Part shown: in pieces, positions 3,222 to 35,957 of the stretch | Numbering within the stretch: the stretch's first letter is position 1 | How the letters are laid out: every line of letters starts with the position of its first letter | Virus record (IMG/VR): IMGVR_UViG_3300035698_009603 | Location: 1 to 35,957 of that record | Source: a virus | Reading direction: 5' to 3' (one strand) | DNA length: 35,957 bases | The notes under the pieces: generated by a model | Databases searched by the model: none | What the model was told of the DNA's origin: nothing | Seen by the model: the letters and a program-made list of their open reading frames with translations, nothing else | Position numbers and translations under genes: made by a program

Positions 3222-3497
3222 GACAATTCTATAACCATATTCTTGGAAAAGCATGGGCTTACAGAAGACTACATTGCAGGTAAGTTAAAAGAACTCATGG
3301 ACTGGGAGTCTGTAAAGCTCGATAAGAACGGTGAAGTACATACCTTTACAGATGGCCCGCTGCGTCTTAAGGCTATAGAGTTATGGCTTAAAATGAAGGC
3401 ACCTAAAACACCAAATCAACACTTGCACGTTAATAACTTGGGGGACGCTAAATTAAATGAACTCCTCAGAAAAAGTAAGAAAAAAAGCACTAAGTGA
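3198..3497 (+). CDS. terS: probable terminase small subunit
   Basis: TerS recognises phage DNA and delivers it to the packaging motor. This 99-residue helical protein lies immediately before terL and overlaps it by 41 bases. Features include LTEDYIAGKLKELMD near the N terminus, LRLKAIELWLKM in the middle and a basic tail, LLRKSKKKSTK. The pattern resembles short terminase small subunits of other tailed phages, in which a predicted helical region precedes an LRLKA-type helix. The assignment rests on position and pattern rather than a conserved motif. No ribosome-binding site precedes the ATG at 3198; an internal Met at 3300 is possible but has no better site. Confidence 0.6.
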   Translation: MRKDLACQDNSITIFLEKHGLTEDYIAGKLKELMDWESVKLDKNGEVHTFTDGPLRLKAIELWLKMKAPKTPNQHLHVNNLGDAKLNELLRKSKKKSTK

Positions 3498-5957: not shown

Positions 5958-6004
5958 AACCGAAATGACTGGTGTCTAGAACACTTGCAATTTACAGGTG
6001 TTTA

Positions 6005-10764: not shown

Positions 10765-10893
10765 ATGGCTTTACGTCTTATCAAAATCGTTGTTTCTGGA
10801 ATAAAACAAATATTTACAACTAGATACGAGACTGCCCGCTTTATACATGAGTGTAGATGCGGGGGGTCAATTGCTAAAGATAAACAAAGATAA
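10765..10893 (+). CDS. 42-aa leader frame overlapping the portal start
   Basis: GAGGTG stands about four bases before ATG at 10765. The basic product MALRLIKIVVSGIKQIFTTR continues with a Cys pair, CRC, and stops at 10891-10893 inside the portal gene in another frame. The portal ATG at 10847 has no ribosome-binding site of its own, so this frame may bring ribosomes to it. The peptide may or may not have a separate role. Confidence 0.5.
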   Translation: MALRLIKIVVSGIKQIFTTRYETARFIHECRCGGSIAKDKQR

Positions 10894-13617: not shown

Positions 13618-14889
13618 ATGGGACAAACATATGCGTTATACGCAGCAATGTTAAAAGAATTCTATGGAGCAGCGTTCCAAGAAACTTTTAATAACGAAGT
13701 ATTACTCAAGAAGTATCTTGAGGAATCAAGTAAACAATGGGATGGACTAAGGGTTAATTATCCAGTTCATTCTGCAAGAAACCAAGGTATCGGTGCAAGA
13801 GCTGAAGGCTTATCACTTCCTACTGCTGGTTATCAGGGTTTTGACTCTGTTTATGTTACATCAGCTTATTTGTATGGGAGAATTAATTTAACAGGTCAGG
13901 CTTTGGCCGCATCTAAGAAAACAGCTTTTGCTGAAGCTCTTGGAATCGAAATGGAAGGCGTTAAGACTGATTTAATGTTTGACATTGGGCGTCAAAGTTA
14001 TGGCGAAGGTCAAGGAATCTTGGCTATGTTTGACGACAGTTCAACAGGCGTTAATCTTGCTGTTGCTAATCAATATCAAGATGCTGGACAGCCTGGTGCT
14101 AGGTATCTTTCTGTTGGTCAAGCTCTTGACATAGGTCATACATCTTGCGTAGCAGTATTCACATCTAGCGTACTTGTACTTGTATCAAGTATCACAATCG
14201 CAGCTAACAGTGGAACACTTACTGATACAGTAGTGAACAGTTCTTGTATGAACATTAATTCTGAGAATTACATGTTTAGACGCGGAGCTGGCGGAAGAGG
14301 CGTAGAACTTAAAGGATTAAGAGCTATTGTTGATGACACAACTTCAACAAATGTTTATGCAATAACAGCAGCCTTTTTTGGTAATGCTACAATATTTAAT
14401 GTAGACAGAGATGCAAATGCAGGTTGGAATTCTTACGTTAATCAGAATTCTGGTGCAGTAAGACTTATAAACAATTCACTTTTACAAAAATGTTTAAGCT
14501 CAGCCAAAAAGAAAAGTGGTAAAGACATTAACATTATATTCGCTGAATATGATGTAGTGGACGCTTTCTTAGACAGTGTTGCTGGCGACAGACGTTTTGC
14601 TTCAAAGAATTTTGATTCAGGACACGAAGCGTTAACTTTTAATGGAATAACTTTAGTTAAAGATCTTCAAGCTCCATATAATGAGCTTTTTGGTCTACAT
14701 AAAGACGCTCTTAAATGGTACATGTTACATGATTTTAGTTTTGATGACCTTGACGGTTCAATACTTAAGAATGTAGCTGGTTACGATAAGAACGAAGCTT
14801 TTGTTAAAGGATATATGCAGATTGCTCCTGGTGAGGAAGCTGCACCTAATAGTTGTTTCGCCCTTAGAGAAATCAAAACAGACATTTAA
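13618..14889 (+). CDS. major capsid protein
   Basis: This 423-residue product is the shell subunit, expected to have the HK97 fold. The N-terminal part (FNNEVLLKKYLEESSKQWDG followed by LRVNYPVHSARN) and the run AEALGIEMEGVKTDLMFDIG resemble the N-arm and spine helix of capsid proteins in this group. The C-terminal part includes DVVDAFLDSVAGDRRF and FNGITLVKD, as in the peripheral domain. AGGAG lies six bases before the ATG. A strong stem-loop follows the gene, as often after highly expressed capsid genes. An inserted Ser/Thr-rich segment lies at about residues 175-215. Confidence 0.88.
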   Translation: MGQTYALYAAMLKEFYGAAFQETFNNEVLLKKYLEESSKQWDGLRVNYPVHSARNQGIGARAEGLSLPTAGYQGFDSVYVTSAYLYGRINLTGQALAASKKTAFAEALGIEMEGVKTDLMFDIGRQSYGEGQGILAMFDDSSTGVNLAVANQYQDAGQPGARYLSVGQALDIGHTSCVAVFTSSVLVLVSSITIAANSGTLTDTVVNSSCMNINSENYMFRRGAGGRGVELKGLRAIVDDTTSTNVYAITAAFFGNATIFNVDRDANAGWNSYVNQNSGAVRLINNSLLQKCLSSAKKKSGKDINIIFAEYDVVDAFLDSVAGDRRFASKNFDSGHEALTFNGITLVKDLQAPYNELFGLHKDALKWYMLHDFSFDDLDGSILKNVAGYDKNEAFVKGYMQIAPGEEAAPNSCFALREIKTDI

Positions 14890-16593: not shown

Positions 16594-16959
16594 ATGAGTG
16601 ACAAGGTAGAATTAAGAAATTTACACATTTCTGCAGTATTAATTTCAGGATGCACAACAGTTGCAAATGTTTTTATCGGAGATTTGGAACATTTTGATGT
16701 GACAATTAAGAGTTGTGCTACCTGTACAGTTCCGTATGCCCTTTGTTTTTCACCGTTTGAAGACACTGGGTATTTTAGTACAGCAACAAACTTTACAGCA
16801 ACAAGTATCTTAGAGGGTAGTGCTACAAACTCTTTTGTAACAAACCATATTTCTGCAAACAACATGAATCATATGAGCGTTGTTTTCCACACAACTAATG
16901 CTGGTGGACATGGAGCTGACACATTTGTCGGACATATTCATGGAACACTAAGAAAGTAA
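16594..16959 (+). CDS. small beta-rich virion protein, 121 aa
   Basis: AGGAG lies about eight bases before the ATG. The product is rich in Thr, Ser, Ala and Asn with alternating hydrophobic residues (LRNLHISAVLISGCTTVANV) and His-containing loops near the end (HTTNAGGHGADTFVGHIHG). No signal peptide. It lies between the adaptor and a fibre-like gene, so it is probably a virion component. No family recognised. Confidence 0.5.
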   Translation: MSDKVELRNLHISAVLISGCTTVANVFIGDLEHFDVTIKSCATCTVPYALCFSPFEDTGYFSTATNFTATSILEGSATNSFVTNHISANNMNHMSVVFHTTNAGGHGADTFVGHIHGTLRK

Positions 16960-16969
16960 GGAGTAATAA

Positions 16970-17983
16970 ATGGCAACAATTGCAAAGACTTACACGTTCT
17001 TAGATAAGATAACTGCAGATGCGTCTGAGACAAACAGGAATTTTGACGACCTGTTCACAACTATCAACGCACTTAACAGTGAGAATATGGCTGCGGCTTA
17101 CACAGTTTCTATATCACAGGTATCTTTTACTGACTCTAACGCTACTTATTCTGGTACTCGATTAGAGGATGCTTTAGGTGCTACAAGTTACGCACAAAAA
17201 GGAATAAACACAGTTCATGTTATGCCAGATGGTACAGGAGCTTTAAGGGTATTCTCTGGTAAAATTGATATCTTAGGCAAGGTATGTACGATAAGTGATG
17301 GTTTTAGTACAAGTGGATTATCAGACCATGATAGCGGAATAATGCGGTATGGTCTTTATGTTGTGTGTGGTCTTCCTGCTTCAGGTGAGGAGATAACAGC
17401 ATCAGACTTATTCTTAATTGAAGATTCATCAATAGCTGCTACGGCTGATTTCAGTTTGTCTGCTGCTGGTTATTATTATGACAGCAAAAGGTTAATAGGC
17501 TCTGTTTATGCACCTACAACCACATGTCAAAACCTCCAGAACAATTATAGTCCTGACCCCGCAACTGGTAAGTTTGCTTATCAACCAACAAGTCAAACTG
17601 GTCACGGTTTATTTGGATGGTCTCAGGGAGCTAATGTAGCTGGTACAGGTACTTATATAAATGTTGCCTTAATAACTTACGATCAAGAAGTTGGTGCATT
17701 TGGTTATACTATGGAGCTTAGAACTAACTCAGCAACAAGCGTATATGCCACAGAATACTTAGGTAGAGGAACCAGAGTTGGATATGAGTTTTCAATTCAT
17801 ACGTCTGGTACAAGTGTGAAATTTGGTGCTGGCGCTGGGACATTAGTTAATCCATATCAAGACATGGGCCTTATAAAACATGCTGATTACCTTACTTTCG
17901 TAGTTGGTGAAGCAAGAGGCACACCAGAAACAGCACAAATTATTGCTAAACCATACGTTAATATGAACGGAGACAATAAATGA
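16970..17983 (+). CDS. structural protein with fibre-like features
   Basis: The 337-residue product begins MATIAKTYTFLDKITADASE. The helical start NRNFDDLFTTINALNSEN resembles fibre proteins that attach to tails. Middle and C-terminal regions are beta-rich with many Thr, Ser and Gly. AAGGAG precedes the ATG by about seven bases, and the stop overlaps the nozzle gene (ATGA). It may be a tail fibre or a nozzle-associated protein. No catalytic motif seen. Confidence 0.55.
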   Translation: MATIAKTYTFLDKITADASETNRNFDDLFTTINALNSENMAAAYTVSISQVSFTDSNATYSGTRLEDALGATSYAQKGINTVHVMPDGTGALRVFSGKIDILGKVCTISDGFSTSGLSDHDSGIMRYGLYVVCGLPASGEEITASDLFLIEDSSIAATADFSLSAAGYYYDSKRLIGSVYAPTTTCQNLQNNYSPDPATGKFAYQPTSQTGHGLFGWSQGANVAGTGTYINVALITYDQEVGAFGYTMELRTNSATSVYATEYLGRGTRVGYEFSIHTSGTSVKFGAGAGTLVNPYQDMGLIKHADYLTFVVGEARGTPETAQIIAKPYVNMNGDNK

Positions 17984-20646
17984 GCTTAGTCTTCCCTAAA
18001 GCTTTAACATTAGATAATTTAGCTGGTGGTTATAGAAGTGATCTTGACTTTACTGGACTGGAAGCTAATCAAACCAATGACGGTAAAAACACAGAGATAA
18101 CTACCACAACTATAAAACAAAGAAATGGCTATACAAGACTCCTTAACTCAGCCCTTACTAAAACAGGTGTCAGAGAATTGACAGCTTTAGATGGTAACGA
18201 GATAAAGGGTCATTTTCAACTTGTTAAAAGTGGTGAGGGTGTGGAAGTAGCTAAACACATCGTTGCAGCAGGAACTAATCTTTGGGAATACGACTCTCAG
18301 ACCGCATCAATTCTCTTAACAGGACTTAATGATTCAAAGGAAGCCCAATGGTCTTTTGTTCAAATTCAAGATCCTAGAGATGGTACTGATGATATCGTGG
18401 TGGGTGTTAATGGTTATGACCCTCCTATAATTTGGAATGGGACAGAAGCCTCAGCAACACACTTAAGTAGCGTTACTGGTGCAAGTGGTGTTTATCCTGC
18501 CAAGTATGTAATCTCAGTTAAGAATAGACTTGCAATGCTTAACATTAAAGACTCAACAGACGTTGATTCTAAGAGCAGATTTAACCTATCATCTTTAGAA
18601 AGTGGCGTACCACAACCACATCAATACCCTTCTGCACTTGCAAACTGGGCTGGTGGTAGTGATAGACACGGTGGTATTACAGGTGGGGCTAGTCTTAAGG
18701 GTGATATTGTAGTCTTTAAAAAGAGTACATTCTACCAGTTTTTCCTTGCAGCAGGTAATATCGATAGTATAGCACAGTCTATAGTTCATGATTTTAGCAT
18801 GAAACAGATCAATGATAACATAGGGTGTATTGCTCCTAAAACGATAGTTTCTACAGGGAACGAGGTAATGTTTCTTTCTGAACTTGGGGTGTATGCTTAT
18901 AATGGTGAACAGCTTGTTTATTTAAGCGGGGCTATAGAAGACGCTATTAAGAACGTAAACCATGTAATGAAGAAATATTCTTCAGGTGCCTACCATAGAG
19001 GTAAGAATCAATATTGGCTTTCAGTACCAAGTAGCGGAAATAATTCTAACGATGTAGTGTTTGTATATGACTTCACTGATAAGAAATGGTTCACTCCTTA
19101 TGACGATATGCGTTGTGATGTCCTGTCTAATTTTGTAGAGGGTTCACAAGAGCGGCTTATAAGTGGAGACAATAAAGGATATTTATATAAGTTAGATCAA
19201 GGAGTTAACAACGGTAAGGAGATTGGCTACAACCTTGTGCCAAGTACACTAACGGGTGGAAACACAGTAAATTTTTACGATTCACAGGCAATTGATGCGA
19301 ATGGTGACGGTCTACTAGGTTTAAGCGTGCTGGCTTTAGGATCAACAGGATCAAACTTTATCCTTAGAACTATAACAGACTCAACTGGGACACAGATCAC
19401 TGTAGAGCCTGTGTGGGGTTCTGACGTTGACACAGGTACAACCTTTAGCATCTTAGGTATTAACTCTTATCTTAGGACTAAAGATTACGGGTTTGATAGC
19501 CCTGACGACCTTAAATACTTCAAGCAAATAGCCACAAGAGCTAAACAGCTTGGTGATATTAACATGGATGTTAATTATATCATGGATTTTAATAATCCTT
19601 CTGAAGCTGCTACTGCCTCAATAAGTCAATATGACAACAAGTTTTTAACTTGGACTGCTGGTGATTTTGCTACAGGCACAGAGTCAAGGTTCTCAGGAAC
19701 TATTGAATCATCTGGAACCCTATTTAGTGGAACAGATGTTACTGTTTCAGCAGTTACTACCGAAATGGCAACAAAGTTTTTATCTTTTGTTGTTGATCCT
19801 CCACCGAGTGCTACTCTTATCGAGCTTATATATGGTGTAGATGATGTTCTTGGTGATCTTACTTTGATAAGTCTTGGTGGAAGCCGCTCTATAATAGAGC
19901 TTCCATATAAGTTTTTATCATGGGATTATTCTTGTCAGTCTTGGGCTAACTACTTTATCTCACTTGACGAAGATGCTCATGTAAATAGGTATGAGCTTAC
20001 TGAAATAGCACCATATGACCGTCTTTTTTATTATGCTTGTGGGGCTGGTGCTATTGCTACCCTTGATTACGAATGGATAATATATTCAGCTTCTACAGTT
20101 GGAGCAACGGCTGTTTTTGAATCTACCAGTACATCAACCATAAAACCAGTCCATCCCTATACTATACAAGATGTTACGGGAAGCCTGGCAACAATAGCAG
20201 ACCCAGCTCAAAGACTTATAACTGCAACGACTTTAAGATATAATATTTTTTCAACAGATCTTTCACAAGTAGTGGTAAGCGCTGACATATCAGCTTGTAA
20301 CCTTGCTGGGTATGGAATGTATTTCTGGAATTCTGGCACAAGATATGTAAGACCAATAACCACAGGGGAATGCGATACAATAAACCTTGGTGACTATGGG
20401 ACAGCTAGTTTAGTGGCAGCCCATTGCAACACAAATTATTTAATAAACACGAATTTAGAAAACACATGGGGGACAGCTAAATGGGGTCCAGCTAAGACTG
20501 AAAAGACTGACATAGGTATAAGGTCACTTGACACACAAGAGGCTGCAGGTAATCACTTCGCAATGAAGTTTGGTAATAAGAAAGCTAATGAGAAATGGGA
20601 GCTGTATGGCTTTGATATATTAGCTAAAGAAATAGGAAGAAGGTAG
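17980..20646 (+). CDS. tail nozzle-like beta-propeller protein
   Basis: The 888-residue product has an N terminus (LDNLAGGYRSDLD ... IKQRNGYTRLL) and repeated propeller-like blades (VVFKKSTFYQF, GIYAYN-like LGVYAYNGEQ, VFVYDFTDKKWF) of the nozzle or tail-stabilising family in short-tailed phages. The end, NTWGTAKWG ... WELYGFDILAKEIGRR, is also typical. Between about residues 600 and 800 lies an extra Cys-containing beta region that seems to split the normal C-terminal part. The nozzle extends the portal-adaptor channel and binds fibres. Assigned by overall pattern and position after the adaptor. Confidence 0.65.
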   Translation: MSLVFPKALTLDNLAGGYRSDLDFTGLEANQTNDGKNTEITTTTIKQRNGYTRLLNSALTKTGVRELTALDGNEIKGHFQLVKSGEGVEVAKHIVAAGTNLWEYDSQTASILLTGLNDSKEAQWSFVQIQDPRDGTDDIVVGVNGYDPPIIWNGTEASATHLSSVTGASGVYPAKYVISVKNRLAMLNIKDSTDVDSKSRFNLSSLESGVPQPHQYPSALANWAGGSDRHGGITGGASLKGDIVVFKKSTFYQFFLAAGNIDSIAQSIVHDFSMKQINDNIGCIAPKTIVSTGNEVMFLSELGVYAYNGEQLVYLSGAIEDAIKNVNHVMKKYSSGAYHRGKNQYWLSVPSSGNNSNDVVFVYDFTDKKWFTPYDDMRCDVLSNFVEGSQERLISGDNKGYLYKLDQGVNNGKEIGYNLVPSTLTGGNTVNFYDSQAIDANGDGLLGLSVLALGSTGSNFILRTITDSTGTQITVEPVWGSDVDTGTTFSILGINSYLRTKDYGFDSPDDLKYFKQIATRAKQLGDINMDVNYIMDFNNPSEAATASISQYDNKFLTWTAGDFATGTESRFSGTIESSGTLFSGTDVTVSAVTTEMATKFLSFVVDPPPSATLIELIYGVDDVLGDLTLISLGGSRSIIELPYKFLSWDYSCQSWANYFISLDEDAHVNRYELTEIAPYDRLFYYACGAGAIATLDYEWIIYSASTVGATAVFESTSTSTIKPVHPYTIQDVTGSLATIADPAQRLITATTLRYNIFSTDLSQVVVSADISACNLAGYGMYFWNSGTRYVRPITTGECDTINLGDYGTASLVAAHCNTNYLINTNLENTWGTAKWGPAKTEKTDIGIRSLDTQEAAGNHFAMKFGNKKANEKWELYGFDILAKEIGRR

Positions 20647-23345: not shown

Positions 23346-25627
23346 TGGAAGAAGAAGAATATGATAACTTAACAGAAGAAGAGTTAGATGCGGAATTACT
23401 AAAAGATTCTACAATAGGTGTAGAATCAATGTCGGATGCAGAGATAGACGCAGAGTTATTAACAGGCTCTGAAATGAGTACAGACCCCGAAGAGTGGTCT
23501 TATGCAAAACCTGAAAAGCCATCTAATATAAAACAAACACCAGCCGATATATCTCTTGCTGATAGAATTACTGCAATAAACTTTGCTTCAGACCCAGCTA
23601 AGGGAGCACAATTCTTACAGGAGAAGTACAAAGATAAACAATTTGCTTACAACGAGGATGCTGGAATTATCACAGAAATCAATAAGGAAACGGGCGAGGA
23701 ATATCCAGTTGATCCAGACACTTCCTATTTTAAGCCACTACTTCAGGAACCTAAATTTAAAATAGTTAATGGTAAACTTGTAAACCAACAACCACCAATA
23801 ACAGGTAGAATGATAAAAGAACTTACGGCTGATGCTGCTGACATGGCTGTCGATATTGGTCATGGCGCAGTTTCTTTTGCTGCAGGTCTTGGTTCTGCCA
23901 AAATAGCTGCTCCTGCTGGGGCGTTACCTGCTCTAGGTGCTGGTATGCTTGGTGGTGGTTTGGCTAGCTCTGGGTACGAATTAGGGAAGCAAGCCGTAGG
24001 AGATGCTTTAGGGATAAAAGATAACTACAGCACCAAAAACATAGCAATAGCTGGTGGCATAGATGCTGTATCTACGTTGTTAATGGGTACTGGGATTGGG
24101 ATAAAAACACTGCATAAATCAATGCTAAAAAAGGGTGCAACAGAAAAAGCAGAAGCTTTAGTAACAAAGACACTAAGAGAAGCCCTTGCTGCTGACGGCA
24201 TAGTTGGTGCAGGATTCACAGGAGCTAAAAAAATTGCTGGTGTTGTTGCAGAAAAAACCACAGGCGTTGCTTCAAAGTTGTATAAAACATATGTAGACCC
24301 AGCTAATAAAGCAATACTTAAGAGACTGGATGACGCAGGTGTGACAGAGATAGCAACAGAAATAGGTACTGAAATTGTTGAGCTTTGGAACTCAGCACTT
24401 AAAGGCTTTGGACAAAAACTAACTGACGTGAGACAAACGAAAGGCGTTAAGGTTAACATAACACCAGTTAAACAGGTTTATAAAGATAAAATTATTCAAT
24501 TAAAAAAGACTGCTAAAACACCTGATGATTTTAAAACACTAGACAATATGGTTCAAGAATATGACAACCTATTCTTAAACAAAAAAACAATGGACACTTC
24601 AACTGCACAAAGAGATGCTGTTGTAGGTCAACAAGATTCAGCGATTCAAAAATCAAAAGATATCTTAACAGAAAAGAAAGCAACGTTTGCCAAGACAGAA
24701 AAAGATATTCAAATAAGGAAAAAAGATCTGGAGATAGCAAAGAAAGAATATGAGTTAAGCGGGGAAAAAGTAAGAGAAGCAGAACGGGCTTTTGATAACG
24801 AGGAGCTTGAGATTAAATATGTAGAAAAAGAACTTAAAGAAGCTCAGAAAAAATCAATGTTAGAAGATAAGGTTCCAACTTTTGCTGAAGTTCCACAACC
24901 ACAAAAAGAATATATATCGGAAGTGTCAGGTGAAGAGTTTACAAATTTGCTTCAAAATATAAAAGAGTCTGGTGTTGTATGGAAAATAACAGAGGGTAAA
25001 AATAAGGCTGCAGACACAGCAACAAGAACAGCTCTTTCAGCTAAAAATGTCTTAGATAAAGAGATAGATAAACAGCTAGTAGAGCTACCGCTTCTAAGAG
25101 CTGAGTATAAAAGGATAAGAGACACTGAGGATTTTGTTTCTAATTTCTATAAGGTTGGAGACAACAAGCAGAAGATATACGATGACGCTACATATAAATA
25201 TTTAACAAACAAGTCTAACGATGTTGTTGCTTCTGAGAACATAAAAGGTTTTGACTCACAGTGGGGAACGGCTCTTTTTGAGAAAGCACAACTTCTAAGA
25301 ACTCATAAAGCTCTTGGTAAACATGCTTTAACAAATAAATATCCTGCTGCGGTTAGGCTTTTAGGTCTTCCTACAGCAGGATATTTAATTGGTAGGGAAG
25401 CTGATGGTTTTGGTGGTGGAGTAAGAGGGGCTGCAATTATGACAAGTATAGGCTTAATCGGCCTAAGCCCAACTGCATGGAAGCTATACTACGGTGGTGG
25501 CAGAGGAATAAAACCATTTATTGAAGCTACCTATAAAGGTATGAAGAAAAAAATTACTCAAAAAGCTATTACACAAGGGGTTAGCCAAGGCCTTAGAAAG
25601 CCAGCACCGCAATCGCCTCAAGAGTAA
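23345..25627 (+). CDS. large ejection or internal virion protein, 760 aa
   Basis: An acidic N terminus carries two related motifs, EEELDAELLKDS and DAEIDAELLTGS. Hydrophobic Gly/Ala-rich helices lie at about residues 175-235 (AAGLGSAKIAAPAGALPALG). A long coiled coil runs about 430-510, and another hydrophobic segment near 690-730 precedes a basic end. It is the last plus-strand gene of the block and its 3' end overlaps the convergent glycosyltransferase gene by 10 bases. Size and layout fit the largest ejection protein of a podovirus. No lysozyme motif was seen. Confidence 0.5.
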   Translation: MEEEEYDNLTEEELDAELLKDSTIGVESMSDAEIDAELLTGSEMSTDPEEWSYAKPEKPSNIKQTPADISLADRITAINFASDPAKGAQFLQEKYKDKQFAYNEDAGIITEINKETGEEYPVDPDTSYFKPLLQEPKFKIVNGKLVNQQPPITGRMIKELTADAADMAVDIGHGAVSFAAGLGSAKIAAPAGALPALGAGMLGGGLASSGYELGKQAVGDALGIKDNYSTKNIAIAGGIDAVSTLLMGTGIGIKTLHKSMLKKGATEKAEALVTKTLREALAADGIVGAGFTGAKKIAGVVAEKTTGVASKLYKTYVDPANKAILKRLDDAGVTEIATEIGTEIVELWNSALKGFGQKLTDVRQTKGVKVNITPVKQVYKDKIIQLKKTAKTPDDFKTLDNMVQEYDNLFLNKKTMDTSTAQRDAVVGQQDSAIQKSKDILTEKKATFAKTEKDIQIRKKDLEIAKKEYELSGEKVREAERAFDNEELEIKYVEKELKEAQKKSMLEDKVPTFAEVPQPQKEYISEVSGEEFTNLLQNIKESGVVWKITEGKNKAADTATRTALSAKNVLDKEIDKQLVELPLLRAEYKRIRDTEDFVSNFYKVGDNKQKIYDDATYKYLTNKSNDVVASENIKGFDSQWGTALFEKAQLLRTHKALGKHALTNKYPAAVRLLGLPTAGYLIGREADGFGGGVRGAAIMTSIGLIGLSPTAWKLYYGGGRGIKPFIEATYKGMKKKITQKAITQGVSQGLRKPAPQSPQE

Positions 25628-27606
25628 AGCTCTTTAAACTTCTTCAGATAATGTTTAACCTGAAACATAAACTCTTTTGTAATCTTATGATAAATCATAT
25701 GTCTATGATCTACATGTTCTATTGTATTTAAGAGTGAGTGTGTTGCATTCTCATAATGAAACAGTTGCAGTTGAAGCACGTCAAATATCAAAACCCTGAA
25801 TAGTAGCTCTGTAAACATCTTCTTTTTAAAGTTCATCTCTACAGTGTTAGTTACATTACCCCACAGCTTTTCAATATTAGCCTTGTTACTTCTTAGGAGT
25901 AAGATATTCTCATAAGCATCTGGAGCTGTCTCATGACAAAGACCTACCATTTTTTCAATCTCATTGTAGCATGTTTTAATAGCATCCTTAATAAGACCAG
26001 AGGCTATATCCATATCTTTAATATACCCATCTAAAGTCACAGCGGAGTCTTTTATCTTCTTGTTAAAAGCAACTACACTCTCAGGTGGTAGTTTAGCTCT
26101 GTGTTTTTTAATAAGCTCATCTGTATTCACACCCTTTTGAAAATACTCCTCAATCTTATCCATTGTCTTAAATGTAGTGAGTGGAATGACGGCTCCATGT
26201 TTAGCTGTGTTTATAACGTTTAACTTCTTACCTTTCCTGTTCCATTTCTGAATAGTTTGCATATATTCCCGTCTACAACGCTGCCACACCGGTATGGTAA
26301 TACTCTCACCACCAGAGTTAGTTTTAATCTTAGTGTGGAGCTTCTTACTCTTCTCAATGTCAAACTCAACCTTCGTACCTTTAATGTGTGTCTCACCTTT
26401 TGGTCCTTTACATACATCTATACCAGCAAGAAAGATATTCTTACATCCAAAGTTAATAGCCATTTCAATAGCTGCATTTGCACTTGAAACACCCCCGTCT
26501 ATGTTACCATGAGGCAAGTCTGTAAACGCACAAACACCATTCTGTCTAAAGAGATAGAAAGTATCTTCAAATAGATCAAAGAACTCAGTTGGAGTCCAAG
26601 GATAAGCAGCGTAATAGATACCCTTAGTCATTTCCTTAGTTATACCTTCAAAGATACCAGTAAGCTTTCTTTCGCAACGAGTTACAACGTGAGGCTTAAT
26701 CCCATTATCAAGTAGTATCTTAAGCACTGCGTCAGCAGCTATAATAATACTGTTCTTAAGTTTAGGGTTCTTCTTGTACTCCTCTATGAAATCATTAAGG
26801 CTTGGTCCACCACCCAGGATGAAACATGGTACATGACTGAACTTATCATACAATCCTTTAACAACCCATGACTTAAGCATAGGCTCTTTGTTCTTTATCA
26901 TTAACTCATGCCTATTAAACTGATCATCAGGACAACCCATACTAAGTTTAATCTGCTGCACTGTGTCTTGAATACATTTAGCATAACCTTTGGCTACTGT
27001 TTGCTTCTCTGTTGTATTATTAACAAAGGGATCAATTACAATTTCCATATTTAATATTAGTGTGGTTCTTGATATTGGTTCTTTTACACTAATAGGTTTG
27101 GTAAGTCTTAAGAATAACTCAGGAAGAAGAGGCTCACCCTCAACACCTAAGATAAAGTCAACAGCAGGGTTAAGGAGAATATCTGTTATATCCTCTGTTG
27201 CAATCAATTCTTTAAAGACAGATAGGTTTGGCTCAATTATACAGGTATACTTTATTACTTTTTTCTTTCTTTGCATAGCATCATACAAGGCTCTAGTTGA
27301 GAAACCAATATACATAGACACTAGTGGGTTCTTAATATCTTTCAATACTAACTTAGAGTCCACCTTTGTTTGTACGTTTGGAGCTACTTTAATCTTATCA
27401 AGAAGCTTGTCCCAGCCTAGCTTTTTCATAGCTGCCAAGTTACTAGCAAAAGCATCAGCAGACTTACGCCTTATAGCTATAGTCTCTTTCTTTTCTTTTT
27501 TCTTTGCAACTTCACCAGTTATAGTAGTCTGACCAATCTCACCATCATGATCCATGAAACTCCCTGTTGCAGAAACCTTGTTCTTCTTTCTTTTGCCTTT
27601 ACCCAT
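25618..27606 (-). CDS. Maf/MptE-like (DUF115) motility-accessory-factor glycosyltransferase
   Basis: The 662-residue product has the core of the MAF_flag10 (DUF115) family: CFILGGGPSLND at 261-272, AADAVLKILLDNGIKPHVV at 290-308 and NIDGGVSSANAAIEMAI with FLAGIDV near 370-398. Upstream, VSMYIGFSTRALYDAM and CIIEPN recall the Maf N-terminal domain. In bacteria, Maf proteins attach nonulosonic acids to Ser/Thr of flagellin. A basic N terminus (MGKGKRKKNK) and a helical C-terminal region flank the core. AAGGAG lies about seven bases before ATG. As last gene of an operon with NeuA, NeuB and NeuC homologs, it is the likely transferase. The acceptor is unknown. Confidence 0.85.
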   Translation of the reverse strand: MGKGKRKKNKVSATGSFMDHDGEIGQTTITGEVAKKKEKKETIAIRRKSADAFASNLAAMKKLGWDKLLDKIKVAPNVQTKVDSKLVLKDIKNPLVSMYIGFSTRALYDAMQRKKKVIKYTCIIEPNLSVFKELIATEDITDILLNPAVDFILGVEGEPLLPELFLRLTKPISVKEPISRTTLILNMEIVIDPFVNNTTEKQTVAKGYAKCIQDTVQQIKLSMGCPDDQFNRHELMIKNKEPMLKSWVVKGLYDKFSHVPCFILGGGPSLNDFIEEYKKNPKLKNSIIIAADAVLKILLDNGIKPHVVTRCERKLTGIFEGITKEMTKGIYYAAYPWTPTEFFDLFEDTFYLFRQNGVCAFTDLPHGNIDGGVSSANAAIEMAINFGCKNIFLAGIDVCKGPKGETHIKGTKVEFDIEKSKKLHTKIKTNSGGESITIPVWQRCRREYMQTIQKWNRKGKKLNVINTAKHGAVIPLTTFKTMDKIEEYFQKGVNTDELIKKHRAKLPPESVVAFNKKIKDSAVTLDGYIKDMDIASGLIKDAIKTCYNEIEKMVGLCHETAPDAYENILLLRSNKANIEKLWGNVTNTVEMNFKKKMFTELLFRVLIFDVLQLQLFHYENATHSLLNTIEHVDHRHMIYHKITKEFMFQVKHYLKKFKELYS

Positions 27607-28635
27607 TTATAACTCCTTAATTTTATTTACTATTTTATCTGAAGAGTCACCTGTACCAAACAAGATCCTCCTTATTCTATCCATGTAAGTAGCTTCTTCT
27701 ACAGCTTCCTTAATATTATCAAAACTACAGTTAACTACATTCCCACTCTTAACTCTACCTTCTTGTCTACGGCCCACATTAACCGCTGGCACGCCAAGAA
27801 ATGAGGCTTCCCTTATACCAGCAGATGAGTTACCTATTATCATCCTGGCTGTAGCTAGGAGCCTATAGAACTGTTCTCCTGGTAGGTTGTAAGTCACGTC
27901 AATACCATCTAAACTCTCCCCAACTTCCAGACTACCTGGGTCATCATTAGGGGCAAACCAGTACACCTTATCCAACTTTAAAGCCTTAATAGCAGATATA
28001 AGAACTCTTATCTGCTCTTCTGCCTCCTCAACTTCTTTAGTATGAGGGTGGAACATTACAATAACGTGTCCTTGTGCTGGCATTACTTCAGGCACTACCT
28101 TTTTAACCAGGTCTAAACTAGGACAACCCGTGTTATGAACCTGGGTTAGCCCAAAGCATTTAAGCCTAGTCTCAGCGTGGTGGTGTGATACAAAATGAAC
28201 GTCAGCTAGCATTGAAATTGCGTTCCTAACCTTATCATCTATATTACCAGAGATCTCCCCACCTTGTATGTGAATGAGTGGTATATTTAAGTAAGCAAGT
28301 ACCTGAGCAATAGGTAGAAGCTCAAACCGATCAGCAATAACCATCCCATAATCAAAACTTTGACCCGATACCCATAGAGCAAACCTAGCTGCGAGTTGTG
28401 TTGAAGAAGTCGCCATAGATATAAGGCTTCGTCTATAATTGTCCACATCAAACACAACGTTAGTGAACAAACTATTAATTTCATTATAGGTATTGACATA
28501 TTTCTCCTTCGTTAAACTCCCTGTAATAACAAGGGTTAAAGCTAGCTCAGGATCAGCTTTTATCTTTAAAAAGAATTCCTTACTTCTGTAGTACGTACAC
28601 CTATTAGATAATATACAAACTATTTTTTTGACCAT
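27607..28635 (-). CDS. neuC: UDP-N-acetylglucosamine 2-epimerase, NeuC type
   Basis: NeuC-type enzymes hydrolyse and epimerise UDP-GlcNAc to ManNAc plus UDP; the legionaminate enzyme of the same family uses a diamino sugar. The 342-residue product shows the family marks ADRFELLPIAQ at 101-110 and HIQGGEISGNIDD at 122-134, followed by RNAISMLADVHFVSH. NTGCPSLD and IGNSSAGIREASFLGVP later match the C-terminal nucleotide-binding half. The length is slightly below the usual 370-390. It overlaps the NeuB-type gene by 16 bases and ends one base before the Maf-like start. Substrate (ManNAc or its diamino analogue) cannot be fixed from sequence. Confidence 0.85.
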   Translation of the reverse strand: MVKKIVCILSNRCTYYRSKEFFLKIKADPELALTLVITGSLTKEKYVNTYNEINSLFTNVVFDVDNYRRSLISMATSSTQLAARFALWVSGQSFDYGMVIADRFELLPIAQVLAYLNIPLIHIQGGEISGNIDDKVRNAISMLADVHFVSHHHAETRLKCFGLTQVHNTGCPSLDLVKKVVPEVMPAQGHVIVMFHPHTKEVEEAEEQIRVLISAIKALKLDKVYWFAPNDDPGSLEVGESLDGIDVTYNLPGEQFYRLLATARMIIGNSSAGIREASFLGVPAVNVGRRQEGRVKSGNVVNCSFDNIKEAVEEATYMDRIRRILFGTGDSSDKIVNKIKEL

Positions 28636-29399
28636 TTACGTAGCCCCTTGAATTCTTTACAATAATATTTAAAGTTCTCTACCTCATCTTCACTAGGCTC
28701 TCCCTTGTTGTATTTCTGTCTTTCTAAATGGTTGACTTCTTCTATTAATTCTCTTACCTCTGACTTGTCCCAAGTGGAGATGCCATTATGTAAGTTATAG
28801 TGTATCTCTGTGTATTCTGTTGACACAGCACCAATTGCTGCAGTGGTAACGTACTTACCATGATAAGAAAACCCCGTTAAATCTAAGTCTACTATCCTAT
28901 TTAACCGGGCCTCTACTGTTGGGTACTCACTAACGCAATGGTAGAATACATAGTTAGAGTTTGGGTATTTGTTTTCGTAATCCCACATCAGCTTTCTTAC
29001 TGTTTTATCACAAACCATTCCTGTAGAAATATGAAGATCAAAAAATTTATTGTAACACTTTTTTATAAACTTCTCGTATCTAAAGTAGGTTGACGGTATC
29101 TTTACAGTATTAGTGAATTTACTAAGTGGTTCAATCATTGACTCACTAAACACTGAACACCAGAACTTTAAACCCATATGATCGGCGAACAGACTAAGCT
29201 CTTTAAGCTGTTCTATAGTAAGGTGACTCTTAACATTTCTCTTGTAGTTAAAGTGAGACTTAACGAGATCCTTAAGGTCATAGCACTGAAATTTCACAGC
29301 GTACACACCAAGATCTGCAGCATCCTGTATCATTCTCCTGGCAATAGTCATATCACCAAGATGGTTCTTAGCCATTTCAAGTATTAGTTTGATAAGCAC
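28620..29399 (-). CDS. neuB: sialic/nonulosonic acid synthase, NeuB type, without SAF domain
   Basis: NeuB condenses PEP with an N-acetylhexosamine to form a nonulosonic acid. The 259-residue product has LILEMAKNHLGD at 5-16 (catalytic-type Glu8 and the NH pair), AVKFQCYDL near 34-42, HCVSEYPTVEARL at 154-166, GFSYHG at 176-181 and a late EIH at 198-200 where family members have EKH. Typical proteins have about 340-350 residues, so the C-terminal SAF (antifreeze-like) domain that closes the partner active site is absent. Start is GTG at 29397-29399 with a G-run directly before it; the next ATG would remove the catalytic Glu. Probably in the family; activity uncertain. Confidence 0.8.
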   Translation of the reverse strand: MLIKLILEMAKNHLGDMTIARRMIQDAADLGVYAVKFQCYDLKDLVKSHFNYKRNVKSHLTIEQLKELSLFADHMGLKFWCSVFSESMIEPLSKFTNTVKIPSTYFRYEKFIKKCYNKFFDLHISTGMVCDKTVRKLMWDYENKYPNSNYVFYHCVSEYPTVEARLNRIVDLDLTGFSYHGKYVTTAAIGAVSTEYTEIHYNLHNGISTWDKSEVRELIEEVNHLERQKYNKGEPSEDEVENFKYYCKEFKGLRKWSKK

Positions 29400-29402
29400 C
29401 CC

Positions 29403-30137
29403 CTATATAATTATATCTCCTCTGCGTATAACGCCTTTAGCTAATTCAAGATCCTCTGCGTCATCTATGTTAGTACCTAGCTTCCTTGAATGAAGCAGCT
29501 CTGATACTGAGGCATTCTCAATGTCAATATTACCCATCATGTATGAGAAGAAAGGCTTAACCTCAAAGGTTTCTTTGCTCAAAAGATTCACCCTCTTACC
29601 AACATAGAAGTTGCCAGAACGTATAACTTGTGGTAAAATGTCCTGCTTATTCTTATAGTTACACTGCCTTAACCTGTGTGCTTGGTCTTCTTTCCAAGTA
29701 TAAATCCTATCTATATATTCCTTAGTAGGTTTAAAACTAATGGCACCTTCCCACTCACCTGAAGTTAAGGCTGTCTTTATCTTAAGGAAATCCTGTACTG
29801 TTCTGAATGGACTTGTTGGTTGCAAGAGCCACACCCAAACCTCAGCCCCACCAATATCAGCAAGGATGCTTTTAACAACGTCTATCATAGGGGTGTCATC
29901 TTCAGCTAACCCTTTAGGTCTTGCCAGGTACTGAATGGTAGAGGAGTAGATGTCCTCAATACCAATCTTGTGCCTTGGGTAGTCAGTTGATACGATGATC
30001 TTTGAGAAGACTTTAGACTCTAAGGCTGGCTCAAGTGCTAACCTTATTAAACTCTTATGATTAAATTGTATTAAGTTCTTGTCTTTAATAGACTTAGACC
30101 CTGAACGTGCTGGTATTATACAGACGTGACGCTCCAT
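29403..30137 (-). CDS. neuA: CMP-nonulosonic acid synthetase, NeuA type
   Basis: NeuA activates the nonulosonic acid with CTP, releasing pyrophosphate. I place the start at ATG 30135-30137 (AGGAG six bases upstream, one base after the methyltransferase stop), giving 244 residues; an upstream in-frame ATG at 30176 lacks this site. Motifs are IIPARSGSKSIKDKN at 7-21 (nucleotide loop), IVSTDYPRHKI, LARPKGLAEDDTPM, WLLQPTSPFRT and NIDDAEDLELA near the end. These cover the known CMP-sialate synthetase signature. The CTP-binding residues look intact, so it is probably active. Whether it prefers Neu5Ac, legionaminic or pseudaminic acid is open. Confidence 0.88.
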   Translation of the reverse strand: MERHVCIIPARSGSKSIKDKNLIQFNHKSLIRLALEPALESKVFSKIIVSTDYPRHKIGIEDIYSSTIQYLARPKGLAEDDTPMIDVVKSILADIGGAEVWVWLLQPTSPFRTVQDFLKIKTALTSGEWEGAISFKPTKEYIDRIYTWKEDQAHRLRQCNYKNKQDILPQVIRSGNFYVGKRVNLLSKETFEVKPFFSYMMGNIDIENASVSELLHSRKLGTNIDDAEDLELAKGVIRRGDIII

Positions 30138-30138
30138 G

Positions 30139-31035
30139 TTATCTCCTCTCCATAATGGTACAGATCTTATATCCACCCACAGCTTTAGCTATTTTCTCTA
30201 TAGTTATATCGTTATCAGATAAGTTAAAACCAAGGTCAGTATAAGGATCGAACCCTTTAAGATGTCTTAAGATTGGTTGGATCTCTGACTCTATAGTGGC
30301 AAACTTACCTATCTTCATATTAAAATTGTAGAAGAATGCGTCTAGTGTACTTGGACTGAAGTACCAAAGATGCTGAGGACAGAATGTAGAGCACTTATCT
30401 CCTATAGTTTTGACGATAGTTGACTCAACATTAGGCACTATAAGACCAAACTCACCATCGTCTTCAAGTAGTTCTTGATATTTTTCTATCTCTTTGTAAG
30501 GTTCTTTGACGTGCTCAAGTACACCGTGTAAAGTTATGAGATCGTACTTCATCTTCCCATGTACAGACTCTGAGAACTTCTCATAGCTAGGGTAGGTTCC
30601 AAACTTACACTTTTCCCTAGCCTTGTCACTCATTTCAATACCAACTTTAACTATCGAGCTGTCTAAACCATTAAGAAAGAAGCCGTTACCGCAACCCACG
30701 TCTAGTACCTTCTTAATATTGTTTTCTCCTACATGTTCATTAAAGAATAAGAACTTATCCCACTGTCTTGTTGTTTCAGTCTTGCTTTGTTTAATAGCTG
30801 ACCACATTGCAATAGCAGGTGAATCAGCGTAGAAGTCATCGAGAACTTCTTGTGTTGGTTGACTCCATTGCCATACGAAGTTACAGGTAGGACATTTAAC
30901 AGTAGGGCAGCTCTCAAGAGAGATCACTACTTCTTTAGGCACTACATCTTGTTCACCACATATAATACAATGCCTTACAACTTCCCTATCCCTACCAGCA
31001 AACCAATTCCTAACCTCTTTAAAATACCTATCCAT
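30139..31035 (-). CDS. class I SAM-dependent methyltransferase with zinc-ribbon N terminus
   Basis: The 298-residue product has two CxxC pairs, at 23/26 and 48/51, that probably bind zinc. SAM motif I VLDVGCGNG lies at 110-118, an acidic residue in IEMS follows, and LITLHGVLEHV matches motif II of Methyltransf_23-like enzymes. This layout is common in sugar methyltransferases of polysaccharide and nonulosonate gene clusters. Acting between groEL and neuA in one operon, it could methylate the nonulosonic sugar or its nucleotide form. AGGAG lies about five bases before ATG and the gene overlaps groEL by eight bases. Substrate is inferred from neighbours. Confidence 0.85.
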   Translation of the reverse strand: MDRYFKEVRNWFAGRDREVVRHCIICGEQDVVPKEVVISLESCPTVKCPTCNFVWQWSQPTQEVLDDFYADSPAIAMWSAIKQSKTETTRQWDKFLFFNEHVGENNIKKVLDVGCGNGFFLNGLDSSIVKVGIEMSDKAREKCKFGTYPSYEKFSESVHGKMKYDLITLHGVLEHVKEPYKEIEKYQELLEDDGEFGLIVPNVESTIVKTIGDKCSTFCPQHLWYFSPSTLDAFFYNFNMKIGKFATIESEIQPILRHLKGFDPYTDLGFNLSDNDITIEKIAKAVGGYKICTIMERR

Positions 31036-32551
31036 CTTTCTCCTCTGTAACTATACATGACCCACTCATTAGAAGCATCGCAGCCACGGAAGCAGCCTTT
31101 TGAATAGCAGTCCTGGTAACTTTAACAGGATCAATAATTCCAGCTTCAAATAGGTCACACATTTCTTTTTTACTTGCGTCATATCCAAATGTCCCACCCT
31201 TCTCCTCAACTTGAGCTAAGATCTTCTCTGCATTCTCACCAGTGTTTGACACGATGTATCTAAATGGCATCTCTAAAGCCTTGTTTAATATCTTTTGACC
31301 CACCTCGTCAGAGTCTATTCTGAGCCGTAGGAGCGCTGTTCCACCACCCTGTACCACTCCCTCTGCTAGGGCATGCTTCGTTGCGTTAATAGCATCTTCA
31401 ATCCTGAGCATGAGGTCTTTAAGTTCTGTCTCTGAGTTGGCAGCAACATTTATAGTAGCAACTGAGCTAGTCAGTCTGTTTATTCTGTCTTGTAGTCTTG
31501 CTTTTGTGACTTCATCTTCTTCGTTTCCTGCTTGCTCATTAAGGAGAGTAAGTCTGTCACTGATGTCGCCACATCCCTGAATAAGCGTTGTATCAGATTG
31601 TCTAATAATGATCTTTTCCGCGCTGCCGAGGTCTTCGGGTTGAAAATTACTAATAGGGTTCCAATCAGGATTATAATGTCTTGCACCGCTTCGACAAGCA
31701 AGATCATCAATAAGTTCACCATTATTAAAGCCAGGTGTTTTAATAACTGCAATTTGCATCCCTCCTTTTATCTTGTTCGTTGCTATCATTGCCAACAGGG
31801 AGTCTTCAATCTCCTTAACTATTAATATAAGAGGTTTTTTGCTTTTGGCAACATACTGCAGGACATGTTCAATCTGAGTTACCTTATGAAGATTGTCATC
31901 TACAATCAGGATGTCTGGGTTGTCGTATTCAACAGTTCTATTCTTATTAATGAAATAGTGAGTGGTTTCACCCCACCCTCTTTCTATAATCATACCATCT
32001 TGAAAACTAACGTAAGTCTTTGCTTTCTTTGAATTTTCCACCAAGATAGAGCCGTCCTTACCTACCTTTTTAATAGCTTCAGCTATCAAATTTCCAAGGT
32101 AGGGATCGTTATTGGCTGAGATAGTAGCAACATCTTCTACGTTATCAACATCCCTTGATATCTTCTTAAGGTTTTCAATAGCCTTCTCTGTTGCCTCGTC
32201 GATAGATCTCTTTACTTTAACAGGGCTGTGTCCTGCTGATAAATACTTTAGTCCTTCTGTAAAGATAGCTTGAGCTAAGACTGTAGCTGTACTGGTTCCG
32301 TCGCCGGCCTCGTTATTAGTATCTCTTGCGGCTTGCTTAACTAGGTTAGCACCAAAAGATCTAAGTCTATCCTTAAGATTAACGTAGTGCGCCACAGTTA
32401 CACCATCTCTTGTTGAAAGAGGTGCAGCGTTTGGTCCCATATCTATTAAAATGTTCTTACCATTGGGTCCTAATGTTTCACGCACTGTGTTAGATAGTTC
32501 ATCTAAACCCTTCTTTAGTTCAGGTAGCGGATCTTTAATAACCTTGTTCAT
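31028..32551 (-). CDS. groEL: chaperonin GroEL (60 kDa type, phage form)
   Basis: GroEL forms a double ring that folds proteins in a chamber closed by GroES. The 507-residue product keeps TLGPNGKN at 26-33, RDGVTVA at 48-54 and GDGTST at 83-88 (nucleotide site with the Asp matching E. coli Asp87). It also keeps IEDAINATKHALAEGVV with the Asp matching Asp398, then QGGGTALL and IDPVKVTRTAIQKAASVAAM. It is about 40 residues shorter than E. coli GroEL. It lacks the Gly-Gly-Met C-terminal tail, ending CIVTEEKDG, and has a reworked apical domain. It follows groES with a four-base overlap. ATPase residues look intact. Confidence 0.95.
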   Translation of the reverse strand: MNKVIKDPLPELKKGLDELSNTVRETLGPNGKNILIDMGPNAAPLSTRDGVTVAHYVNLKDRLRSFGANLVKQAARDTNNEAGDGTSTATVLAQAIFTEGLKYLSAGHSPVKVKRSIDEATEKAIENLKKISRDVDNVEDVATISANNDPYLGNLIAEAIKKVGKDGSILVENSKKAKTYVSFQDGMIIERGWGETTHYFINKNRTVEYDNPDILIVDDNLHKVTQIEHVLQYVAKSKKPLILIVKEIEDSLLAMIATNKIKGGMQIAVIKTPGFNNGELIDDLACRSGARHYNPDWNPISNFQPEDLGSAEKIIIRQSDTTLIQGCGDISDRLTLLNEQAGNEEDEVTKARLQDRINRLTSSVATINVAANSETELKDLMLRIEDAINATKHALAEGVVQGGGTALLRLRIDSDEVGQKILNKALEMPFRYIVSNTGENAEKILAQVEEKGGTFGYDASKKEMCDLFEAGIIDPVKVTRTAIQKAASVAAMLLMSGSCIVTEEKDG

Positions 32552-32808
32552 TTCATGCCCCCTTTAACTGCCCAGATATTTTCACTGTCTATAATGTGGT
32601 ATTCTTTACCGTCAATCCACACATCTTCCCCTGCAAATTCAGAGAATATAACATGCTCACCAATCTCATACCCACAGTCTCCTGATGTTGACATGATCTC
32701 ACCTTCAAAACTCTTATGTTTCTGACTGTCAGTATAGATGACACCGCCATCAACAACCTTATCGCTTATTTTTTTAAGTAGTAGCTTCCCGTTTTTCATC
32801 TCTAGCAT
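32548..32808 (-). CDS. groES: co-chaperonin GroES, short form
   Basis: GroES caps the GroEL ring. The 86-residue product contains GKLLLKKISDK, the mobile-loop tip DGGVIY (GGIVL in E. coli) followed by a short loop, FEGEIMSTSGD, and the strand pattern GEHVIFSEFAGEDVWIDGKE ending NIWAVK. It is about ten residues shorter than usual, mainly in the mobile loop and the roof hairpin. AAGGAGG lies five bases before ATG 32806-32808. It overlaps the dehydrogenase-like gene by 35 bases. The presence of its own GroEL partner next door suggests a dedicated pair. Confidence 0.9.
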   Translation of the reverse strand: MLEMKNGKLLLKKISDKVVDGGVIYTDSQKHKSFEGEIMSTSGDCGYEIGEHVIFSEFAGEDVWIDGKEYHIIDSENIWAVKGGMK

Positions 32809-33610
32809 TCAGCCTCCTTATTAATTTATCAAATAGTATCTCACTTGTTTTAGTTAAGTCTTCTATTGTGTAGCCACCAGTGTGGTTTGTTACGACAACG
32901 TTCTTGCGTCCTGTTAGCTCTTCACGTAGTCTAAAGTCAGAAGCAAACCCACCAAACCTATCAATGTGTTCAGCCATAGCTATCTGATCTATAAGACATG
33001 GTCTTGATGTGTTGACGATGAAAGCTCCATCCTTAATAAGTTTAATCTCTGCTGCTCCAAGGATGGGTTTCTTATTAGGTTTAACTGATGCGTTTATAGA
33101 TATGATATCGCATTCTTTTAAGATGTGATCCCTACAGAATATGTAATCATCTATAGGTCCGTAACTCTTCCTGTTATACAAATCAATAGCATGGATAGTC
33201 ATACCAAAAGCTTTAGCAAGTTCAATCAGTTGCCTACCTACCCTACCCTTACCAATAATGCCTATGGTTTTACCTTTAAGTGTAAAGCCTGGCTCACTTC
33301 TCCTTGTGTTTCTTTTAAGGAGTCTCATTATTAAATACATGGTGTGCTCTGCAGTTGAGACTATATCACCAAGTTCCGAACCATCTAAGTGTATGATTTC
33401 CTTATCCCACTTCTTTTTCAGGTGATTAACGTTGGTCATGTTACATGCCAAAATCTCGAAGTTTTCTTCGGGGCGTTTTTCCAACTTTGCCTTGCCGCAC
33501 AGCAGCAATTTAGAGTTAGTGTTTGTCCCATGTAGGAAGTTTTTATAGAATTTGTGATGAACTCTTTCAGATAGTCCAGGATCTAGCCCTGAAGCGTCGT
33601 AGAATAACAT
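32774..33610 (-). CDS. D-isomer 2-hydroxyacid dehydrogenase family protein
   Basis: These NAD(P)-dependent enzymes reduce 2-oxo acids or oxidise D-2-hydroxy acids (for example phosphoglycerate dehydrogenase). The 278-residue product has VSTAEHTMYLIMRLL, the Rossmann motif GIIGKGRVGRQLIELAKAFG near 114-133, NTSRPCLID with the catalytic-type Arg, and VVVTNHTGGYTIEDL with the catalytic-type His. The N-terminal substrate domain is shortened. It opens the eight-gene operon, about 55 bases after the predicted transcription start. It could supply a hydroxyacid or oxo-acid precursor or adjust redox for sugar synthesis. The substrate cannot be read. Confidence 0.82.
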   Translation of the reverse strand: MLFYDASGLDPGLSERVHHKFYKNFLHGTNTNSKLLLCGKAKLEKRPEENFEILACNMTNVNHLKKKWDKEIIHLDGSELGDIVSTAEHTMYLIMRLLKRNTRRSEPGFTLKGKTIGIIGKGRVGRQLIELAKAFGMTIHAIDLYNRKSYGPIDDYIFCRDHILKECDIISINASVKPNKKPILGAAEIKLIKDGAFIVNTSRPCLIDQIAMAEHIDRFGGFASDFRLREELTGRKNVVVTNHTGGYTIEDLTKTSEILFDKLIRRLNARDEKREATT

Positions 33611-33631: not shown

Positions 33632-33671
33632 TATATGTATGGTCATTTTGCATTACATGTATGGCAATTTT
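33632..33671. repeat. 18-bp imperfect direct repeat in the divergent control region
   Basis: TATATGTATGGTCATTTT (from 33632) and TACATGTATGGCAATTTT (from 33654) match at most positions and start 22 bases apart, about two DNA turns. The second copy overlaps the -10 of the leftward promoter. Same-face spacing suggests a dimeric regulator binding site for the glycosylation operon. Confidence 0.55.
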
Positions 33672-33694
33672 AACGCAAAGAGTTGAATTGTCAA
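33667..33694 (-). promoter_or_regulatory. strong sigma70-type promoter of the chaperonin-glycosylation operon
   Basis: Read leftward, consensus TTGACA (33694-33689) is followed after 16 bases by TAAAAT (33672-33667). It drives the operon beginning at 33610. Its -35 touches the -35 of the rightward promoter back to back, so RNA polymerases going opposite ways compete for the same site. Confidence 0.7.
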
Positions 33695-35828: not shown

Positions 35829-35957
35829 TTCCCCGCCAACATTTTAATAAGTTGATTTATTTGAGCAGCCCTAGCAGCATCCCTAGCAGCAGCCCTAGCA
35901 GCAGCCCCAGCAGCATCCCTAGCAGCATCCCTAGCAGCAGCCCTAGCAGCATCCCTA
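35825..35957 (-). CDS. C-terminal end of an R[DA]AA-repeat phage protein, start beyond window
   Basis: The minus-strand frame enters from the right edge as 43 codons. Tetrapeptides of the type [R/G]-[D/A]-A-A repeat until RAAQINQLIKMLAGK and a TGA. Ala-rich R-D-A-A and W-D-A-A tails with a short polar end are found at the C termini of phage proteins whose N terminus is often a DUF7666 domain. This may be a paralogue of, or the same gene as, the frame at the left edge. An alternative frame would contain stops, so this frame is the coding one. Confidence 0.7.
   Translation of the reverse strand, partial: RDAARAAARDAARDAAGAAARAAARDAARAAQINQLIKMLAGK
35864..35957 (-). repeat. 12-bp tandem repeat, about 7.8 units, coding R[DA]AA
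   Basis: Plus-strand units of AGCAGCCCTAGC or AGCATCCCTAGC follow one another to the window edge. On the minus strand each unit codes Arg, Asp or Ala, Ala, Ala. One unit has CCCCAGC, giving Gly in place of Arg. The array is cut by the edge. Confidence 0.93.

Follow-up and report, generated by a model that had tools for sequence, protein, structure and literature searches.

Why should a tailed phage carry, in one run of genes, a chaperonin pair, the enzymes for a sialic-acid-type sugar and a transferase of the kind known from flagellin glycosylation? The question is raised by IMG/VR record IMGVR_UViG_3300035698_009603, which comes from an uncultivated tailed phage and was analyzed in its entirety (35,957 bases; the window in what follows). 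Profile matches place on its plus strand a terminase with an intein, a P22-like portal, a major head protein and further head and packaging genes, and as the window is a full IMG/VR record with such genes, its viral origin is sound. By capsid and portal, phages of Arthrobacter, Microbacterium and Cellulosimicrobium are the nearest named ones, at less than 30% identity. The answer that we favor, with somewhat better than even confidence, is that the minus-strand operon would supply a tailed phage with a self-contained system for the O-glycosylation of proteins, including a virion protein as acceptor; the genes argue strongly for the sugar pathway and weakly for the virion acceptor.

Operon Organization

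The first-pass annotation had described eight tightly packed, partly overlapping genes and had proposed that they combine a nonulosonic acid route with a Maf transferase. The order and the named families were borne out: the eight open reading frames form a single tight minus-strand run from 33610 to 25618, encoding in turn a 2-hydroxyacid dehydrogenase, GroES, GroEL, a methyltransferase, NeuA, NeuB, NeuC and a Maf-type transferase, with mostly good ribosome sites, and all eight proteins score above the Pfam gathering score of the named family (2-Hacid_dh_C, Cpn10, Cpn60, Methyltransf_23, CTP_transf_3, NeuB, Epimerase_2, and MptE-like; Table 1). The close packing is equally evident from the intergenic gaps, which are in order -35, -4, -8, -38, +3, -16, and 0 nt, and the presence of the sugar route and the transferase in one phage operon is supported by families, intact-looking motifs and folds. 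The stricter NCBIfam cut-offs are passed only by NeuC (TIGR03568) and by GroEL with general subfamily models. The scores of NeuB, NeuA, and Maf are far short of the equivalog cut-offs, and these three are therefore treated as members of broad families with putative substrates, the exact sugar being unreadable from sequence. The promoter-like site ahead of the first gene is weak evidence for a start of transcription, and such sites were no commoner in the window than in shuffled sequences.

Table 1. Features of the operon and of the structural region, with coordinates in the window.
Feature	Coordinates	Strand	Evidence
Promoter-like site	33667..33694	-	TTGACA-16-TAAAAT, 57 nt ahead of first gene
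2-Hydroxyacid dehydrogenase-like, first operon gene	32774..33610	-	PF02826 90.8 bits; ribosome site AAGGGG
GroES, 86 aa	32548..32808	-	PF00166 39.5 bits; aligned with 3nx6, 1wnr
GroEL, 507 aa	31028..32551	-	PF00118 202.6 bits; PRK12849 458 bits
SAM methyltransferase, N-terminal part Cys-rich (zinc-ribbon-like)	30139..31035	-	PF13489 49.8 bits
NeuA/PseF-like CMP-sugar cytidylyltransferase	29403..30137	-	PF02348 62.8 bits; PDB 1eyr E 2e-14
NeuB-like nonulosonate synthase, barrel only	28620..29399	-	PF03102 72.8 bits; model pLDDT 88.9; Foldseek best 6ncs
NeuC, hydrolyzing UDP-GlcNAc 2-epimerase	27607..28635	-	TIGR03568 (NeuC_NnaA) 239.9 bits, cut-off 235.9
Predicted Maf-type (MptE-like) nonulosonate protein transferase	25618..27606	-	PF01973 89.5 bits; 5mu5
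Two Ser/Thr-rich genes, candidate acceptors	5972..8769	+	Ser+Thr 0.207, 0.215; one weakly tail-fiber-like (phrog_9729, E 3e-4)
Portal protein	10847..12835	+	phrog_156; PF16510 86.2 bits; family common to other Maf phages
Major head protein	13618..14889	+	phrog_14242 E 1.7e-50
Three Ser/Thr-rich virion-region genes, candidate acceptors	16594..20646	+	Ser+Thr 18-22%; 17980-20646 is phrog_3287 virion structural protein

Proposed Synthesis and Decoration of the Sugar

In the proposed pathway, NeuC would convert UDP-GlcNAc to ManNAc, NeuB would join PEP to ManNAc, or to a closely similar sugar, giving a nonulosonic acid, and NeuA would activate this product with CTP. NeuC is the one enzyme of the three that clears its equivalog cut-off (Table 1). 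NeuB consists of 259 aa and stops after the barrel, without the C-terminal SAF domain, which is missing in 20 of the 22 NeuBs that were aligned from virus records. All columns that are invariant among these 22 proteins are kept in the window enzyme, the kept residues being K36, K100, S103, S125, G127, H154, Y159, P160, G176, S178, H180, E198, and H200; they include two histidines that we take to be the metal binders of Neisseria NeuB, as well as what are presumably the PEP lysines (1xuz positions). Structure prediction, which had been proposed as a check and was run for NeuB and Maf, gave a barrel for NeuB (best Foldseek match 6ncs, E 1.9e-16, followed by SpsE, Neisseria NeuB, and PseI), and 6ncs is a sialic acid synthase with a chain of 290 residues. 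Profile, invariant columns and fold thus agree on a PF03102 barrel with its PEP and metal residues. In Neisseria NeuB, E134, N184 and, within the SAF domain, R314 presumably contact ManNAc; as the window residues aligned with E134 and N184 are changed and R314 is gone with the SAF domain, the enzyme may use a substrate other than plain ManNAc. N-acetylneuraminate is not claimed as the product, because the NeuB_NnaB equivalog is not reached (74.2 vs. 399.65 bits). NeuA has the CTP_transf_3 domain and its N-terminal signature (IPARSGSKSIKDKN, LLQPTSPFR) and is likewise below its best equivalog, PseF (83.9 vs. 205.7 bits), so its substrate is putative. For this gene the likelier start is the ATG at 30137, which lies behind a GGAGAGGAG site, rather than the GTG at 30176 that opens a longer frame.

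The 2-hydroxyacid dehydrogenase contains an NAD domain with GxGxxG, and the usual R/E/H triad can be made out by eye. The dehydrogenase and the methyltransferase would probably modify the sugar further, a methylated hydroxyacyl group being one possible addition. A 2-hydroxyacid dehydrogenase accompanies neu genes in the window and in the viral loci L004, L013, and L041, and by phmmer alone in L034. In six related Maf phages a lactate-racemase-like protein (LarA) is found instead of the dehydrogenase, and four Maf phages have relatives of the window methyltransferase in the interval from terminase to portal. The occurrence of 2-hydroxyacid enzymes and methyltransferases beside neu genes suggests a hydroxyacyl or O-methyl decoration, for which there is a precedent in Campylobacter, whose flagellin bears pseudaminic acid in a di-O-methylglyceric acid form (PMC3068675). 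In L004, L013, and L041 the dehydrogenase gene adjoins neuA, neuB, or neuC, a recurrent arrangement.

The Maf-Type Transferase

Maf proteins act in the cytoplasm and are classically flagellin transferases (PMC4065374), and from its family the window protein is predicted to transfer the activated sugar there to Ser/Thr of a protein. Its PF01973 central domain scores far above the cut-off of 34.6 bits, and the solved Maf glycosyltransferase 5mu5 was matched both by sequence (E 2.6e-8) and as the first Foldseek match of the model (625 columns, E 2.1e-17, prob 1.0). The model has a pLDDT of 61.6 overall and about 90 in the central domain, and it reproduces the three-part 5mu5-like architecture with the N- and C-terminal parts at low confidence; the N-terminal domain model PF20157 had no match in the window Maf and weak ones in its relatives. 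The window protein keeps the positions that do not vary across phage and bacterial Mafs, and the PseD equivalog is not reached (52 vs. 670 bits). A pterin kinase activity, considered for an MptE-like protein, was rejected, as the whole-length match is to Maf. The window Maf is 23-27% identical to other phage Mafs and had no match among INPHARED phages, and the long branches of the Maf tree leave a common phage ancestry of these proteins unsettled. Two of the three bacterial relatives found (L060, L062) adjoin flagellin-like genes. One Maf can use Neu5Ac as donor, and the Mafs studied so far did not act on non-cognate flagellins (PMC11339370).

The Chaperonin

Cpn60 and Cpn10 domains with the ATPase motifs kept identify the remaining two genes as GroEL and GroES. 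GroEL lacks the GGM tail; its identity to phage and bacterial GroELs is about 38%, which is also the upper limit among its INPHARED relatives. In the alignment to 3nx6 and 1wnr, GroES shows a gap at the place of the cellular roof hairpin. GroEL is common among phages, occurring in 261 INPHARED records. The co-transcribed chaperonin would most likely fold phage proteins in general rather than serve the sugar pathway.

Related Loci in Other Viruses

When Maf, NeuB, GroEL, or capsid served as a single query sequence, the virus collection gave no matches; exact peptide patterns fail on relatives this diverged, and alignment-based scans were therefore used. With the NeuB alignment, 42 IMG/VR records were retrieved, many with NeuA and eleven with NeuC nearby, and an MptE-like protein exceeded the cut-off in 8 of 43 NeuB records. 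The NeuC alignment returned zero matches from patterns in poorly conserved stretches, which says nothing on absence. In INPHARED the window NeuB matched one entry, the huge phage LR756508, and canonical NeuB three, one of them a bacterial contig; an INPHARED match to NeuC was rejected as a phage, being a Moritella contig with capsule genes. NeuB-NeuC-NeuA in L005, L006, and L013 adjoin open reading frames that by eye resemble portal or capsid genes.

At least six other virus records of the same portal family encode a full-length Maf (G018, G032, G043, G044, G045, G050; from the Maf scan plus the NeuB-record results, with families tested by profile), and their portals match that of the window. 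In the three with the longest cover, the region just upstream of terminase and portal reads NeuB, ribonucleotide reductase, NeuC, methyltransferase, NeuA, LarA, and Maf (about 650 aa); the three shorter ones show the Maf end only (LarA-Maf-terminase-methyltransferase-portal, LarA assigned by eye). The cluster continues with terminase, a methyltransferase related to that of the window, portal, scaffold, and capsid. Since the module recurs with Mafs that are just 45-60% identical to one another, it seems to have been maintained for long. Ten further records of the portal lineage, mostly short fragments, had neither Maf nor GroEL. The first-pass annotation knew of no described phage with this combination; this stands for the libraries that we searched, but the neu genes, methyltransferase and Maf recur as a module in other uncultivated phages. 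The search it had suggested for neu-Maf beside groEL found neu-Maf in other phages and no adjoining GroEL.

Three further loci differ in content. The 484 kb uncultivated phage LR756508 (310772-335512) has a SAF-less NeuB beside GDP-sugar enzymes and methyltransferases, and several of its open reading frames carry by eye a sialyltransferase-like signature (IVGNSG...GEEIDxHDxVIRFNxAP). In a 167 kb record (L020/G017), NeuB, NeuA, and two MptE-like matches belong to a cluster of the pseudaminic/legionaminic type. In L059/G046, which may be a prophage border, an 862-aa Maf-like protein, NeuB, and a nucleotide-sugar epimerase are convergent to tail/baseplate-like genes.

Acceptor and Alternative Explanations

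Among possible acceptors, a virion protein of the phage itself is the most likely, a reading favored because the module adjoins terminase, portal, and capsid genes in its relatives and no flagellin is encoded. Flagellin (PF00669) is absent from the eight Maf phage records, window included, and for this reason the operon is not filed as a flagellin glycosylation island. The Ser/Thr-rich proteins put forward earlier as acceptors do have the composition ascribed to them (18-22% Ser+Thr vs. 9-15% in most other window proteins) and stay candidates, as high Ser+Thr is common in fiber proteins and hence no proof of such a role; no acceptor common by sequence was found among the Maf phages. Since the Mafs studied so far are flagellin transferases, to propose a virion protein as their target is new. 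Their classical role, and the flagellin-like genes beside the closest bacterial relatives, suit the idea that the genes modify flagellin or another protein of the host, for instance to block flagellum-specific superinfecting phages. We consider this unlikely, though less so than the other alternatives, as the module adjoins late structural genes in the relatives, assembled flagellin is out of reach for a cytoplasmic enzyme, and each Maf is specific to its cognate flagellin (PMC11339370). The nonulosonic acid could also enter host LPS or capsule, the Maf-like gene being a different transferase, with a change of receptor or serotype as the outcome. Phage enzymes modifying capsule nonulosonic acids have been reported (PMC6586298), and the window has a UDP-glucose dehydrogenase-like gene. 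The similarity of the transferase to Maf, a protein transferase, over its whole length speaks against this, as does the lack of a flippase or polymerase among the eight operon genes (Pfam), so that we rate a surface-glycan role as more doubtful still.

A single transcript unit with overlapping genes would also fit a machine in which GroEL/GroES folds Maf or its acceptor, and the roof-hairpin gap of GroES could enlarge the folding cage, as in T4 gp31. This functional tie, part of the original proposal, found no support and is given little credence: GroEL was found in none of the six related Maf/neu records, weak evidence as these may be fragments, and in one of 58 other virus records (G017), about 115 kb from its neu genes, and phage GroELs are common without neu genes. 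With GroEL missing from the related records, a special link between chaperonin and glycosylation is unsupported, and the chaperonin most plausibly rides in the operon as an independent passenger. Bacterial-type genes in a metagenome assembly might, finally, be host sequence, either decayed or misassembled. Such a chimera is rejected as scarcely credible, since the frames are open with motifs kept, the GC content of operon genes (0.36-0.41) equals that of structural genes (0.36-0.43), the end of the Maf frame shares 10 nt with the last gene of the plus-strand structural run, and similar gene sets occur in independent phage records.

Comparison with Known Systems

The Maf flagellin islands of Campylobacter, Aeromonas, Clostridium, and Geobacillus are alike in making a CMP-nonulosonate with Neu/Pse/Leg enzymes and in Maf transfer to Ser/Thr, predicted here, with the 5mu5 fold. 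The present system differs in being phage-borne, in having no flagellin gene and a SAF-less NeuB, in its NeuC-type route vs. Pse/Leg enzymes, and in including a methyltransferase and a 2-hydroxyacid enzyme in the unit. The six uncultivated records share Maf, portal family and, where covered, NeuB, NeuC, NeuA, and methyltransferase, but have LarA for the dehydrogenase, ribonucleotide reductase in the cluster and no GroEL/GroES. GroEL-related chaperonins are encoded by phages EL (gp146; PMC7185714) and AR9 (PMC9598537), whereas the window adds a GroES gene and places both in the same operon as sugar genes. Mycobacteriophages Che8 and Rita glycosylate their capsids (cited in PMC11256854) and are alike in that phage-encoded glycosyltransferases modify virion proteins, which is predicted here from genes. 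Both phages are unrelated to the window phage. We know of no nonulosonic acid route or Maf in either.

Phage virion glycosylation is thus already known, and what would be new is a flagellin-type (Maf) system; a literature search of open-licence papers found no description of nonulosonic acid synthesis or Maf-type glycosylation in phages. The parts are ordinary and the setting, a recurrent and conserved Maf-type nonulosonic acid module in phages, was not found described, the GroEL link being its weakest part. That a whole tailed-phage lineage puts a modified nonulosonic sugar on the proteins of its own virions by a phage version of the Maf system is a tentative proposal, to which we give somewhat less than an even chance. 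If true, a Maf system would work outside flagella and phage particles would bear self-made sialic-acid-type sugars, which could alter their recognition by receptors, mucus, or immune proteins. The compact neu-plus-Maf unit with its probable non-flagellin acceptors is usable for tests, and a set of SAF-less NeuB enzymes with putative sugar substrates is now in hand.

Other Features of the Record

Both contig ends carry tandem repeats, so the phage genome is probably incomplete and the record a fragment. The start (2-550, minus strand) encodes a protein of pentapeptide-like Asn-Ser-Gly repeats that is truncated at the contig edge, and a 12-nt tandem repeat occupies 35852-35955. The dehydrogenase-like gene mentioned above (2430-3152, minus strand) is a short one of the UDP-glucose/GDP-mannose type, of 240 aa and without part of the usual enzyme. 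The gene for the terminase large subunit (3457-5931) contains the intein in frame, at about residues 200-541, with a LAGLIDADG domain (PF14890, PF14528).
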